From: Candidatus Nanopelagicus abundans
GTDB taxonomy: Bacteria > Actinomycetota > Actinomycetes > Nanopelagicales > Nanopelagicaceae
DNA: 64,000 nt
Direction: 5' to 3'
Assembly (NCBI RefSeq): GCF_002288305.1
Contig: NZ_CP016779.1
Span: 496,001 to 560,000, forward strand
In this document: positions 2,908 to 37,933 of the stretch, in pieces
Numbering within the stretch: position 1 is the first letter of the stretch
Layout of the letters: each line of letters begins with the position of its first letter
Notes under the pieces: generated by a model
The model's input: only the letters and a program-made list of their open reading frames with translations
Told to the model about the DNA's origin: nothing
The model's database searches: none
Position numbers and translations under genes: made by a program

Positions 2908-2938
2908 AATCTATCGCATCTAGGACTTGCCTGCACAA
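2908..2938 (-). promoter_or_regulatory. Possible promoter of the tRNA-Gly/Cys unit
   Basis: On the minus strand TTGTGC (2938-2933) and TAGATT (2913-2908) are 19 nt apart. They would start transcription a few bases before the tRNA-Gly 5' end at 2893. Both hexamers are imperfect, so this is tentative. Confidence 0.3.
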
Positions 2939-2972
2939 TTGAATATTAGCTACCAGCGGGCGGTGCTAGCGG

Positions 2973-2978
2973 TAGCGT
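2973..2978 (+). promoter_or_regulatory. -10 element (TAGCGT) for leaderless pabB
   Basis: TAGCGT is followed by 6 nt and the pabB ATG at 2985. There is no Shine-Dalgarno sequence in the 20 nt before the ATG. The element fits the leaderless pattern seen at other operon heads in this window. A -35 is not evident. Confidence 0.4.
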
Positions 2979-2984
2979 TCAAAC

Positions 2985-3971
2985 ATGGATAACACAGGTG
3001 CACTCTTTTGGATGGGTGATCGCCTTGCCAGTAATTGTGTTGAAATCTCAAATGATCCAAGCTCTCTTGCTAAGCCAGGATTTTGGGCAGTAGTAAATAC
3101 CTTTGAAGGTAAGTGGATCTGCGCAAGATTTGCAACAGTTATTAACGCTCCATTACCTGAAATGCCCTGGCAGGGAATAACTACACCTTGGTTATCATCT
3201 CAATCTAAAAGTACTTATGAAGATAATGTCAGATTAATTAAGGAAAAGATTGCTGATGGTGATATTTATCAAGTAAACCTTTGTCGCATTTTAAGCACAA
3301 ATTGTGATCAATCCCTACAAGGCCTTGCCGTTAATTTGCAATCAAATAATCCAGCTCCATTTGCTAGTTATCTTAAACTCGACGGAATTGAGATTGCCTC
3401 GGCTTCACCTGAATTATTTTTAGAGAAAAAAGATGCGGTGATTAAATCAACTCCGATTAAAGGAACTGCAAAGACAGATTCATTTGGTGAAAAAGACAGG
3501 GCTGAGAATGTAATGATTGTTGATTTAATGCGCAATGATTTTGGTGCAATTTGTGAGCCAGGAAGCGTGGATGTACCAAGACTACTTGCAACCCAATCTC
3601 ATCCAGGTTTGTTTCACTTAGTTTCTGATGTCGTAGGAAAATTACGGAAAGATGTCACTTGGCCAGATATTGCCAAAGCCCTCCTACCTGCAGGCTCAAT
3701 TAGTGGGGCGCCAAAATCATCCGCAATTAAAAGTATAAAACAAATTGAATCAGTAGAGCGTGGCCCATATTGTGGTGTTATTGGCTGGGTTGAAAATGAT
3801 CAAGCACTACTATCAGTTGGAATTAGAATATTTTGGTCATTAGCAGATGGGCAGATTAACTTTGGAACAGGTGCTGGTATTACCTATCAGAGTGATCCAA
3901 CAAGTGAATGGGAAGAGACGGCCCTTAAGGCAGCTCGCTTAATAGCTATTGCGTCCGGGGTATCAGTATGA
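2985..3971 (+). CDS. pabB: Aminodeoxychorismate synthase component I
   Basis: A 328-residue chorismate-binding enzyme. Visible motifs are SASPELF (139-145), STPIKGT (155-161), DLMRNDFG (180-187), PAGSISGAPK (235-244) and GAGITYQSDP (296-305). The PIKGT lysine is typical of PabB, where anthranilate synthase TrpE has PIAGT, so para-aminobenzoate synthesis is favoured. It makes 4-amino-4-deoxychorismate from chorismate for folate. The protein is short for the family (about 450) because the N-terminal non-catalytic part is reduced. No glutamine amidotransferase partner (PabA) is encoded nearby. The pabC start overlaps its stop by 4 nt, which supports one operon with the lyase. Confidence 0.87.
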   Translation: MDNTGALFWMGDRLASNCVEISNDPSSLAKPGFWAVVNTFEGKWICARFATVINAPLPEMPWQGITTPWLSSQSKSTYEDNVRLIKEKIADGDIYQVNLCRILSTNCDQSLQGLAVNLQSNNPAPFASYLKLDGIEIASASPELFLEKKDAVIKSTPIKGTAKTDSFGEKDRAENVMIVDLMRNDFGAICEPGSVDVPRLLATQSHPGLFHLVSDVVGKLRKDVTWPDIAKALLPAGSISGAPKSSAIKSIKQIESVERGPYCGVIGWVENDQALLSVGIRIFWSLADGQINFGTGAGITYQSDPTSEWEETALKAARLIAIASGVSV

Positions 3972-30382: not shown

Positions 30383-31377
30383 GACGTTTAATTGGCATGT
30401 TACTTGGCTGTGTAACATTTTCTATATCCGCAGTGTTTATCCATAACGCGTTCCTACTTAATGACTATCGGGCTACTACGTCAGATCAAAAAGTTGAAAT
30501 CTTTATCGAACCTGGAGATAGTGGTACTGAAATAGCTCAGAAGCTTTATAAATCTGGAGTGATAAAAGTAAGTAAAGTTTTTTATAAAATTGCGATAAAT
30601 GAAAAGCGTGCTAAATCAATTTCTCCTGGAGTTCATGAGATTGATTTGAAAATATCATCTCGGGCAGCTTTTGAACAACTTCTTGATGGCAAACGCAATC
30701 GAGGTCTATTTGGGTTTAATGAGGGTTTACGAAAGAATGAAATATTAGATCTATTATCAAAATCAAATTTGGTTGAAGGCGTATTATCAAAAGATGTAAA
30801 ACCTGATAAAAAATATAACACTAATAATCTAGAAGGGTTTTTGTTTCCAGCTCAATATGCATTTATTCCTGGTTTAAGCACGGATAATGCAGTTCAACAA
30901 ATGGTTGATCGCTTTAATTTAGCGGCTAAAGCTAGCAAGATTGATCAAGGATATAGTGGCTTTACCCCGTATGAGCTTTTAACAATAGCGTCTATGTTAC
31001 AAGCAGAAGGTGATGAGCAAGATTTTTCAAAAATTGCTCGGGTTATTTATAACAGATTAAAAGTAGGCATGCCTTTGCAGATAAATGCAACAATTGATTA
31101 TGCGATGAATTTAAGAGGAAAAATTCGCTTGCCATATAAATTACTAGAAATAAAATCTCCTTATAACACTTACCGATATCGTGGATTGCCGCCAGGCCCA
31201 ATTGGAAATCCAGGTCAGGCTGCGTTAGAGGCTGCAGTTAATCCTGCAAACGGGCAGTGGCTCTACTATGTGACAGTGAAACCTAGTGACACTAGATTTA
31301 CAAAATCTTATGACGAATTCCTAGTTTGGGTAAGTGAGTTTAAGAAAAACGAAAAGGCAGGTTTGTTTAATGATTAA
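30379..31377 (+). CDS. mltG: Endolytic murein transglycosylase MltG
   Basis: A 332-residue YceG-type membrane protein. An N-terminal transmembrane helix (about 5-26) is followed by a LysM-like region and the catalytic domain with the glutamate in SMLQAEGDEQDF, ARVIYNRL, and the terminal LPPGPIGNPG. It cleaves nascent peptidoglycan strands and is a candidate terminator of glycan elongation. It starts with GTG on the ruvX stop and overlaps aroE by 8 nt. Confidence 0.93.
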   Translation: MRRLIGMLLGCVTFSISAVFIHNAFLLNDYRATTSDQKVEIFIEPGDSGTEIAQKLYKSGVIKVSKVFYKIAINEKRAKSISPGVHEIDLKISSRAAFEQLLDGKRNRGLFGFNEGLRKNEILDLLSKSNLVEGVLSKDVKPDKKYNTNNLEGFLFPAQYAFIPGLSTDNAVQQMVDRFNLAAKASKIDQGYSGFTPYELLTIASMLQAEGDEQDFSKIARVIYNRLKVGMPLQINATIDYAMNLRGKIRLPYKLLEIKSPYNTYRYRGLPPGPIGNPGQAALEAAVNPANGQWLYYVTVKPSDTRFTKSYDEFLVWVSEFKKNEKAGLFND

Positions 31378-32167
31378 GTTGGCGGTGGCTGGTTACCCAA
31401 TTAGCCATTCTCTCTCGCCCCTATTACATTCCACTGCTTACAAGATCCTTGGGGTAGAAGCAGAATTCTTAAGTGCTGAAATAAGTGAAGATAAGTTTGG
31501 TGATTATTATTTTGAAGCAAAAAATTCTGGGTATAGAGGCCTTGCATTAACTATGCCATTAAAGGAAATTTCAATTGGATTTGTGGATAGAGTTGACCCA
31601 GTTGCTAAGCAAATAACCTCTGTTAATACAATTATCTTTGAATCAACTGGAAGTATTGGTTTATCAACTGACTTGCTAGCTTTTAAAAACCTGCTTAAGC
31701 CATATTTTGGCAAGAAAATTGCGATTCTTGGTGCAGGCGGAACTGCTCGTGCTGCGATTGGTGCTTTAAGAGGAAGTGGTTCAGAACTTTCAATTTTAAC
31801 TAGATCTGTGACTCGCCATGATCAGTTACACGCCGCCGCAGTTGATTTAGATATTGAGTTTTTAGATTGGCATCGATTTGAAGAGATTCAAGATAGAGAT
31901 TTGATTATTTCTACTACACCTGCCGGTGCAACTGATGGACTTTCAATTATCTCAACAAAAGCAGATTTCTTTGAGGTTATTTACCACCCATGGCCCACTG
32001 AGCTAGCAAAGCGGTACCAGAATCTAGGAAGAAATGTAATTGGAGGACTATCTCTTCTAGTTGAGCAGGCACTATTTCAGATAAATTATTTTTCACAAAA
32101 AGAGTTTGATTTTGATGAAATGAGGAAAGAATTGCTTAAAGTCGCAAATGCGGCCGTTAAGGGTTAA
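31370..32167 (+). CDS. aroE: Shikimate dehydrogenase
   Basis: A 265-residue enzyme that reduces 3-dehydroshikimate to shikimate. GYPISHSLSPLLHS near the N terminus binds substrate, the lysine in MPLKE is catalytic, and LGAGGTARAAIGAL is the NADP-binding loop. The frame is open upstream to 31334, but the ATG at 31370 matches the family start and overlaps mltG by 8 nt. The remaining shikimate genes follow beyond a small prepilin peptidase gene. Confidence 0.94.
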   Translation: MIKLAVAGYPISHSLSPLLHSTAYKILGVEAEFLSAEISEDKFGDYYFEAKNSGYRGLALTMPLKEISIGFVDRVDPVAKQITSVNTIIFESTGSIGLSTDLLAFKNLLKPYFGKKIAILGAGGTARAAIGALRGSGSELSILTRSVTRHDQLHAAAVDLDIEFLDWHRFEEIQDRDLIISTTPAGATDGLSIISTKADFFEVIYHPWPTELAKRYQNLGRNVIGGLSLLVEQALFQINYFSQKEFDFDEMRKELLKVANAAVKG

Positions 32168-32182
32168 TCCACAACCATACTT

Positions 32183-32206
32183 TTAGAGATTTTAAATCTC
32201 TAACCT
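32183..32206 (+). promoter_or_regulatory. Perfect 21-bp palindrome over the -10 of the prepilin peptidase gene
   Basis: TTAGAGATTT and AAATCTCTAA, separated by one T, form a perfect inverted repeat at 32183-32203. It overlaps a TAACCT -10 element (32201-32206) that lies 6 nt before the ATG at 32213. The layout fits a repressor operator. It could also act as an RNA hairpin at the 3' end of the aroE transcript, but no U-run follows. Confidence 0.5.
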
Positions 32207-32212
32207 GCTGTA

Positions 32213-32587
32213 ATGGCAATTCAAATTCTTCTGTTACTTATGCTGACCTGGATGTCATTTTATGATATCCGCTTTCATTTAATCAGAAATATTGATTTAT
32301 TTGTTATTTTTTTGTTATTGATACCAAATTTGGGTAATTGGTTATTTGGTTGTTTAAATCTTTCTTTCTATCTATTGCTTAATATGGTAGCTAAAGGCGT
32401 AATAGGTGCAGGGGATATCAAGTTGTCGTTTTTATTAGCGTTACAGCTTGGTTCAGTTACTGCCTTGGTGAATTCGCTTTCTTTCACATGGATTCTTGGC
32501 GGTCTTTATGCATTAATAAGTAGATCACCTGCCATTGCCTTTGCGCCATTTATGATCTGTGGTACCTATTTAGCAAGAATTCTCTGA
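32213..32587 (+). CDS. Small A24-family prepilin peptidase-like protein
   Basis: A 124-residue integral membrane protein with about four hydrophobic segments. It carries the two aspartates of A24 aspartyl proteases, in SFYDIR near residue 17 and GAGDIKLS near residue 64 (GxGD). It lacks the N-terminal methyltransferase domain of full-length PilD. It could cleave type IV prepilin or Tad/Flp-type leader peptides, but no pilin or pilus assembly genes are in the window. It sits between aroE and aroC, where other Actinobacteria also carry a prepilin peptidase. The mRNA is probably leaderless, under a palindromic operator-like site. Confidence 0.75.
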   Translation: MAIQILLLLMLTWMSFYDIRFHLIRNIDLFVIFLLLIPNLGNWLFGCLNLSFYLLLNMVAKGVIGAGDIKLSFLLALQLGSVTALVNSLSFTWILGGLYALISRSPAIAFAPFMICGTYLARIL

Positions 32588-32664: not shown

Positions 32665-33849
32665 GTGATTCGTTGGCTAACAGCAGGTGAATCACACGGT
32701 CCTGCTCTTTCAGCAATTATTGAGGGAATTCCTGCACATGTTCTCATCACTAGTAAAGATATTGACGCAGATTTATCTCGCCGCCGATTAGGTTTTGGCA
32801 GAGGTGCTCGTCAGAATTTTGAAGCTGACAAAATAACTATTACTGGCGGTATTCGACTTGGCATAACACAAGGTGGCCCAATTGCTATTCAAATTGCAAA
32901 TTCAGAGTGGCCCAAGTGGGAAAAAGTTATGAGTTCAGATCCTGTTCCTGAAGATGAAATTAAAGATCTTGCTCGAAATGCGCCTTTAACAAGGCCACGT
33001 CCTGGACATGCAGATTTAGTAGGGATGCAAAAATTTAATTTTTCTGATGCTAGACCCGTTTTAGAGAGGGCAAGTGCAAGAGAGACAGCGTCAAGAGTTG
33101 CACTAGGAGCGGTGGCTCGTGCTTTTCTCAAGCAGTCAGTTGGAATTGAAATATTAAGTCATGTGATTTCAATTGGTGAGGTCAGTGTGTCTGAAGATTA
33201 TTCATTACCTACCATTGCAGATCGAAATCGAATTGATGAGAACCCAGTGCGATGTGCTGATCAAAAAGTAAGTGAAGCAATTGTTAAAGAGATTGAAGCA
33301 GCCCATCGTGATGGAGACACACTTGGTGGTGTTGTTGAAGTTTTAGCTTATAACTTACCACCAGGATTAGGTTCTTATACACACTGGGATAAACGCCTAG
33401 ATGCAAAACTTGCTGGAGCAATGATGGGTATTCAAGCTATTAAAGGTGTAGAAATTGGTGACGGTTTCACAACTGCAAGACGGCGAGGCACTGTTGCTCA
33501 TGATGAAATTGAGAAGAACTCTAAAGGTGCAATTGCAAGGCGCACTGATCGAGCTGGTGGCACTGAAGGTGGAGTTAGTAACGGGGAAATTCTAAGAGTT
33601 AAGGTTGCAATGAAACCAATATCTACTGTTCCAAAAGCATTGGACACAATAGATGTAGCAACCGGTGAACCAGCTAAAGCAATTAATCAACGCTCAGATG
33701 TGTGCGCTGTTCCTGCCGCTGGAATTGTGGCAGAGGCTATGGCTGCTTTAGTACTGGCAGATGCAGTGCTTGAAAAATTTGGTGGTGATAGCTTGCAAGA
33801 GACTAAGCGAAACTTTGAGAACTACATAAAAACCTTAGATATAAAGTAA
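32665..33849 (+). CDS. aroC: Chorismate synthase
   Basis: A 394-residue FMN-dependent enzyme that makes chorismate from EPSP. All signatures are present: GESHGPAL (8-15), [39 protein letters not shown] and [16 protein letters not shown]. The start is a GTG preceded by AGGGGAG, so this gene is leadered. It shares one base with aroK (TAATG) and heads the aroC-K-B-Q run. Confidence 0.96.
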
Positions 33850-37411: not shown

Positions 37412-37933
37412 ATGGGTATTTTGCTATCTAGCAGCGACATAGATCGCGCACTTAAACGTATTTCACATGAAATCATTGAACATAATCAAGGTATTACTAA
37501 TTTAGTTTTAATGGGTATTCCTACCCGCGGCGCATTCCTTGCTGACCGCATCTCAACATTTATTACTGAGATTGAAGGAGAAGTTGCTACTGGAGTTTTA
37601 GATATAACCCTGCACCGCGATGACTTAAGGCTTCGTCCTCCTAAACCATTGCTACCAACTAGGGTGCCAGCCGGTGGTATTGAGGGTAAAGACTTAGTCA
37701 TAATCGATGATGTTCTCTTCTCAGGCCGCACGATAAGGGCAGCACTTGATGCTATTGGAGAGTTAGGAAGACCTAGAAGTGTTCAGCTAGCTGTTTTAGT
37801 CGACCGTGGCCATCGAGAGCTACCTATTCGGGCAGATTATGTTGGAAAAAATATTCCAACTGCCAAGAGTGAGAGCGTGAAAGTTCATCTTGCCGAGTAT
37901 GACAAGGAAGATCTTGTGGAGTTGATTAAATGA
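37412..37933 (+). CDS. pyrR: PyrR bifunctional regulator/uracil phosphoribosyltransferase
   Basis: A 173-residue phosphoribosyltransferase-fold protein. [18 protein letters not shown] (about 95-112) is the PRPP-binding loop, and [13 protein letters not shown] and [10 protein letters not shown] are family blocks. It binds pyr mRNA in response to uridine nucleotides and can salvage uracil weakly. It is the first gene of the pyrimidine operon and its own leader carries the predicted binding hairpin. pyrB starts on its stop codon (ATGA). Confidence 0.95.

Follow-up and report, generated by a model that had tools for sequence, protein, structure and literature searches.

A conserved promoter box of a putative DNA-uptake and recombination regulon precedes a prepilin peptidase gene of Candidatus Nanopelagicus abundans

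The aroE-pilD-aroC locus

We analysed a stretch of 64,000 nucleotides, referred to as the window, from the genome of Candidatus Nanopelagicus abundans (G000; 1.16 Mb, one contig, 99.92% complete). At the locus described here, a gene for a small A24 prepilin peptidase, pilD, lies between the shikimate pathway genes aroE and aroC. The intergenic DNA before pilD contains a conserved box, a palindrome and a -10 element. For the coordinates of all features see Table 1.

Table 1. Features of the aroE-pilD-aroC locus (positions in the window)
Feature	Position	Strand	Remarks
aroE	31370..32167	+	start codon predicted
Box TAATCCACA	32165..32173	+	putative activator-type box; consensus T-W-W-T-N-C-A-C-A-G; TCCACA conserved before pilD
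Palindrome	32183..32203		TTAGAGATTT-T-AAATCTCTAA; spacer between box and -10 element; not conserved
-10 element TAACCT	32201..32206	+	separated from the box by 27 nt and from the ATG (32213) by 6 nt
pilD, pilD-type A24 prepilin peptidase, 124 aa	32213..32587	+	probably leaderless; both Asp motifs kept
aroC, chorismate synthase	32665..33849	+	

The pilD product matches PF01478 over the full length of the model with an E-value of 7.5e-4 and 20.4 bits, below the gathering score of 26.5 bits. Its two Asp motifs, YD and GAGD, are present and align with those of the congeners; their aspartates are presumably the catalytic residues of A24 peptidases. A search of G000 with the protein returned only pilD itself. 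The closest relatives of the neighbouring aroC are Nanopelagicaceae sequences. Among 94 usable loci (duplicates included), a gene between aroE and aroC is present in 87 and absent in 7. The preliminary description of this DNA had regarded the pathway context of pilD as unrelated to pili. The recurrence of the intervening gene speaks against this view, and so does the promoter box, which pilD has in common with tad pilus and DNA-uptake genes.

The box at pilD and at other genes

The first three bases of the box TAATCCACA are the stop codon of aroE, and in most relatives TCCACA stands directly past this stop codon. Removal of redundancy among the 87 pilD loci, at 75% identity over a 60-nt stretch, left 70 non-redundant promoters. 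TCCACA is their commonest 6-mer and occurs in 53 of them (shuffled sequences: mean 0.99, maximum 4). It was found in none of the 7 loci without the intervening gene and in none of 42 control stretches before aroC. The full arrangement, TCCACA-N27-30(37)-TANNNT-N5/6-start, fits 52 of the 70 loci and is missing from the other 18; shuffles gave a mean of 0.07 and a maximum of 1. Within the 52, the gap between the box and TANNNT is 27 nt (8 loci), 28 nt (23), 29 nt (17), 30 nt (2) or 37 nt (2). The -10 element is followed by 6 nt to the start codon in 50 loci and by 5 nt in 2, and this short distance makes it probable that the gene is leaderless, as had been supposed. In four loci (L042, L072, L077 and L081) a variant, (T/A)TAACCACAG or TAACCACAG, is located at the aroE stop codon in place of TAATCCACAG.

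The box alone is uninformative on the scale of the G000 genome, because ATCCACA with a gap of 24-30 nt to a -10 element was matched 5 times, while the reversed control was matched 10 times. The evidence for the box as a candidate regulatory element is carried by orthology and fixed spacing. Two further genes of the window (2932-2990 and 37462-37513) carry TGCACA or TTCACA, spaced in much the same way from a -10 element and a start codon, which could be chance.

The same box was observed at other genes of the genus. After dropping starts that were not covered by the match, 22 of 24 dprA, 14 of 15 tadA and 14 of 17 comEA starts were usable. TNCACA is located 49-51 nt before comEA at all 14 starts and 48-51 nt before dprA at 18 of 22. 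For tadA it lies 34-62 nt upstream at 11 of 14 starts, 8 of them with a distance of 38-40 nt and 3 with distances of 50, 59 and 60 nt; the starts with 59 and 60 nt have a TTCACAG nearer to the start codon. Shuffles for these three counts gave means of 0.5-0.7 and a maximum of 3. Within the counted ranges the box is missing at 4 of the 22 dprA and 3 of the 14 tadA starts. The dprA boxes read TAATNCACA(G) with a free position 5 (T in 11, A in 6, C in 1). Those of tadA resemble them, again with a free position 5 (C in 5, A in 3, T in 2, G in 1). The comEA boxes are NTTTCCACA in 13 cases and ATATCCACA in one. In G000 itself the dprA promoter consists of TAATACACAGG, a gap of 38 nt, TAGGTT, 6 nt and GTG.

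We located recA in 3 of the 7 stretches taken for it (G000, G001 and G002), and the box is present in all three. Here TCCACAG lies 39, 40 and 40 nt, respectively, before TACCTT, with GTCAG in between. Since the recA start codon is further downstream, recA is not leaderless from this -10 element. The distances from the box to the start codon fall into two classes one helical turn apart, about 39 nt (pilD, most tadA) and about 50 nt (comEA, dprA). The recA box, 39-40 nt before its -10 element, is placed as in the second class. Because the same box precedes uptake and recombination genes, the most fitting reading of pilD is that it encodes the prepilin peptidase of what may be a DNA-uptake regulon.

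Of 118 genomes of the class, 115 contain ComEC. We took 40 upstream stretches, 7 from the same family and 33 from other families, and located ComEA by an iterated HMM search in 38 of them. Enough upstream sequence was available at 32 of these 38 loci, 25 outside the family and 7 inside the family but outside the genus. Outside the family TCCACA is the top 6-mer before comEA, with 20 of 25 loci; as controls, the interior of comEA contains it at 1 of 25 loci and DNA farther upstream at 0 of 25. The full comEA spacing (N38-42, TANNNT, N6-7, in-frame start) is present at 12 of the 25 loci. In the family stretches outside the genus, TCCACA precedes comEA in only 1 of 7, a figure obtained as the difference of two counts. 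An A24 gene upstream of aroC occurs in 8 of the 33 other-family genomes according to an iterated HMM search (7 of 33 with a strict expression). TCCACA is found at 3 of these 8 genes, in 2 cases with a comEA-like gap of 39-40 nt.

A class-wide scan with TCCACA-N38-40-TASNNT-N6-7-RTG yielded 82 matches in 33 genomes, compared to 12 for the reversed pattern. Of these, 79 were examined (70 loci read and 9 in earlier stretches), and 66 frames of at least 60 aa were taken to Pfam. Of the 82 matches, 37 stand before genes for uptake, pili, recombination or repair or before DUF222 genes, and 42 before unrelated or unnamed genes. The com locus accounts for 15 of the former, 13 before comEA and 2 (G034 and G037) before what its position suggests is comEC. 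Four matches precede RecA and three A24 peptidase genes, and there are two each for DnaG, the AP endonuclease family, probable RecN-like proteins (SMC_N or AAA_23) and probable RadA-like proteins (AAA_25 with a zinc ribbon). The others are one Flp assembly protein (CpaB/RcpC), one PD-(D/E)XK nuclease and five DUF222 genes.

Loss of the uptake machine

G000 has no match to PF03772 (ComEC) or to PF00437 (T2SSE, the family of TadA). Over the cut-off, PF03772 is found in 17 and PF00437 in 16 of the 25 genus genomes, most of which are incomplete. DprA is encoded in G000 and in 24 of the 25 genomes. The com-locus DNA of the relative G024 has no counterpart in G000 until the end of comEC, where the match sets in. 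In G000 an hflX-like gene is followed by a comEC remnant of about 24 terminal codons and then by a holA-like gene (names of both genes assigned by eye). This comEC remnant is situated on the minus strand at about G000:C1:756667-756743, within L155 (G000:C1:754500-758500), and is perhaps kept as a leader of the holA-like gene that it precedes. The tad operon is cleanly absent beside an argG-like gene (L156, G000:C1:925290-925485). Between the argG-like gene and the next conserved gene there are 195 bases in G000 and about 3 kb containing the tad genes in the relative G014. A further frame of 163 aa lies upstream of tadA on the minus strand of L109 (2434-2925) and appears by eye to be degenerate-GGDEF-like; it was lost from G000 along with the tad operon.

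While comEA-comEC and the tad operon are gone from G000, pilD, dprA and recA are retained, each with its box. As judged by the unmatched T2SSE and the missing tad operon, no pilus substrate for the peptidase was found in G000. The preliminary description had called pilD an orphan. It does look orphaned here because G000 lost the other genes.

A decay of pilD after the loss of the pilus is not supported. Compared to the gene of the nearest relative, G024, pN is 0.266 and pS 0.72, and the identity to the outgroup G017 is 54.0% for G000 and 50.0% for G024, so that pilD changes no faster in G000 than in G024 (many values in the dN/dS comparison are saturated). Either the machine was lost recently or the peptidase still serves another substrate.

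ComEC and a T2SSE match over the cut-off are also lacking in G006, G008, G015, G016 and G018. Since G006 is 92% complete and retains pilD and dprA, the uptake machine may have disappeared on more than one occasion in the genus.

Proposed mechanism and candidate factors

Judged from the sequence comparisons, the 9-10 bp activator box T-W-W-T-N-C-A-C-A-(G), and not the palindrome, is probably the functional promoter element of an uptake and recombination regulon. One element is common to the uptake, pilus, dprA and recA promoters, as in a competence regulon. It precedes these genes at set distances and therefore appears to mark a single regulon. From the observed motif, spacing, gene set and losses we infer protein binding at the box, activation and joint expression of the genes. 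A putative factor bound at the box would activate RNA polymerase at the pilD promoter. The target promoter would be leaderless, with a -10 element and no recognised -35 element, and the polymerase would be recruited by the box-bound activator, which could act from either of two helical phases, with about 10-11 bp between them. The products expressed together would serve DNA uptake (pilus, prepilin peptidase, ComEA/EC), protection of the incoming strand (DprA) and recombination (RecA).

Late competence regulons in Bacillus (ComK) and Streptococcus (ComX/SigX) are built on one signal-dependent promoter type. The proposed regulon is similar to these in having one promoter type before the genes of an uptake channel, a pilus-like machine, dprA and recA. 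It differs in its single box of 9-10 bp, its two fixed helical phases and its leaderless promoters. The available text of a 2026 study of Micrococcus luteus also describes the Bacillus and Streptococcus regulons, states that M. luteus is without ComK and ComX, and notes that the upstream signals of competence and the regulatory cascade remain to be identified (PMC12849477). The box bears on the way in which Actinomycetota turn on natural transformation. A search of the open-access literature, with most subscription papers outside its scope, found no prior account of the box, and as far as these searches show the conserved competence-and-recombination box is new. Standing at precise distances before comEA, dprA, the gene of the pilus ATPase, the prepilin peptidase gene and recA, it offers a bait for the regulator and a small mutation with which regulation can be tested. 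It also accounts for a gene that seems to be an orphan, since the genes of the set that outlasted the loss of the uptake channel and the pilus in this streamlined freshwater bacterium still bear the same presumed switch.

DnaA is one candidate for the factor that reads the box. DnaA boxes span nine bases, the fifth of which is free, as in TTATNCACA. If the box were such a site, DnaA would activate the uptake and recombination genes and thereby couple competence to the state of replication. We regard this as possible rather than probable. The box shares the nine bases ending in NCACA and the free fifth base with DnaA sites at oriC and with those at which DnaA acts as a transcription factor. High-affinity DnaA boxes are listed in the available text of PMC4285127. 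The pilD box TAATCCACA has a single mismatch to TTATNCACA, at position 2, and is thus within one mismatch of it. The comEA boxes, NTTTCCACA in 13 of 14, match TTTTCCACA, and sites near dnaA of the genus read TTATCCACA and TTATACACA. In 3 of 3 genus genomes, moreover, no protein other than DnaA has the DnaA-type DNA-binding domain. The main difficulty is position 2. It is T, as in origin boxes, at all 14 comEA sites, but A at 15 of 18 dprA and 9 of 11 tadA sites; the new box usually has A at dprA, tadA and pilD and C in other families. At com sites outside the family T occupies this position in 5 of 31 cases, versus 47 of 85 for sites in dnaA regions, the latter count including coding sites and using 9 of 20 stretches (11 were without a DnaA signature or enough sites). 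Furthermore, the new boxes are single and stand at a fixed distance from the -10 element, unlike DnaA boxes, and no paper linking DnaA with com genes was found in the open-access literature.

Alternatively, the box might be an upstream element within the PafBC (P1) promoter of the DNA-damage response, with PafBC or a partner controlling the uptake genes. The available text of PMC5656591 gives the P1/PafBC consensus as tTGTCRgtg-8nt-TannnT. The two systems have an overlapping gene set (recA, repair genes) and a TANNNT -10 element. TGTCRG is present in 17 of 72 class-wide matches, and in 13 of 72, including recA and AP endonuclease genes, it stands together with the box at the offset of the P1 consensus; the GTCAG at the three recA promoters points in the same direction. 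However, TGTCRG is absent from the pilD spacer of the window and, at the P1 offset, from 59 of the 72 matches, and PafBC is placed at the -26 motif in the available text of PMC11804915, where TCCACA does not occur. This reading of the box is therefore doubtful. All five DUF222 genes with the box carry TGTCRG at the P1 offset; four of them (L297, L330, L331 and L332) belong to one genome, G046, and the fifth is at L325.

A combined model can be put forward tentatively. A DnaA-box-like element, read by DnaA or by a factor with a similar code, might be a class-wide master switch of transformation that links the replication state to uptake and recA. At the uptake genes it would act on its own, and at recA next to a site of the ssDNA-sensing PafBC.

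The palindrome fills a spacer of conserved length and unconserved sequence between the box and the -10 element. The preliminary description was accurate as to its form. It is perfect, with 10-bp arms and one central base, and its right arm overlaps the TAA of the -10-like TAACCT. No other perfect inverted repeat of the window reaches arms of 10 or more when the loop is limited to 0-1. The dedicated repressor postulated on this basis, a species-specific protein whose operator would block the -10 element of pilD, is very unlikely. Perfect 10-bp arms over a -10 element, inside a promoter, are what such an operator could look like. Sequences as long as the window, simulated with a first-order Markov model, contained a mean of 0.15 such repeats, with at least one in 6 of 40, so the palindrome is only mildly unusual. 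The conservation expected of an operator is lacking: in the set of 20 distinct aroE-pilD intervals of the genus (that of the window and 19 others), an inverted repeat with arms of 10 is found in none of the 19 others, where the longest arms are 8 (all A/T), 7 and 7, and the arms therefore fail the conservation test named in the preliminary description. In the G000 genome the palindrome is present once, even with up to 3 mismatches allowed, and because it is single-copy no regulator gene carries the same site.

A 3' hairpin of aroE, acting as a terminator or RNA end, is the least credible reading, since the possible 9-bp stem with a 3-nt loop, 16 nt past the aroE stop codon (-9.6 kcal/mol, z -1.7), is equalled by 13 of 200 shuffles, is followed by no T run, coincides with no called terminator-like site and is not conserved among the congeners. 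The palindrome is real and probably ordinary; chance is enough to explain it, and a function is unsupported. In two loci (L033 and L068), where the box is absent, similar dyads, CTCATCCCAAAGGATGAG and CTCATCCCATGGGATGA, are located in its place just past the aroE stop codon.
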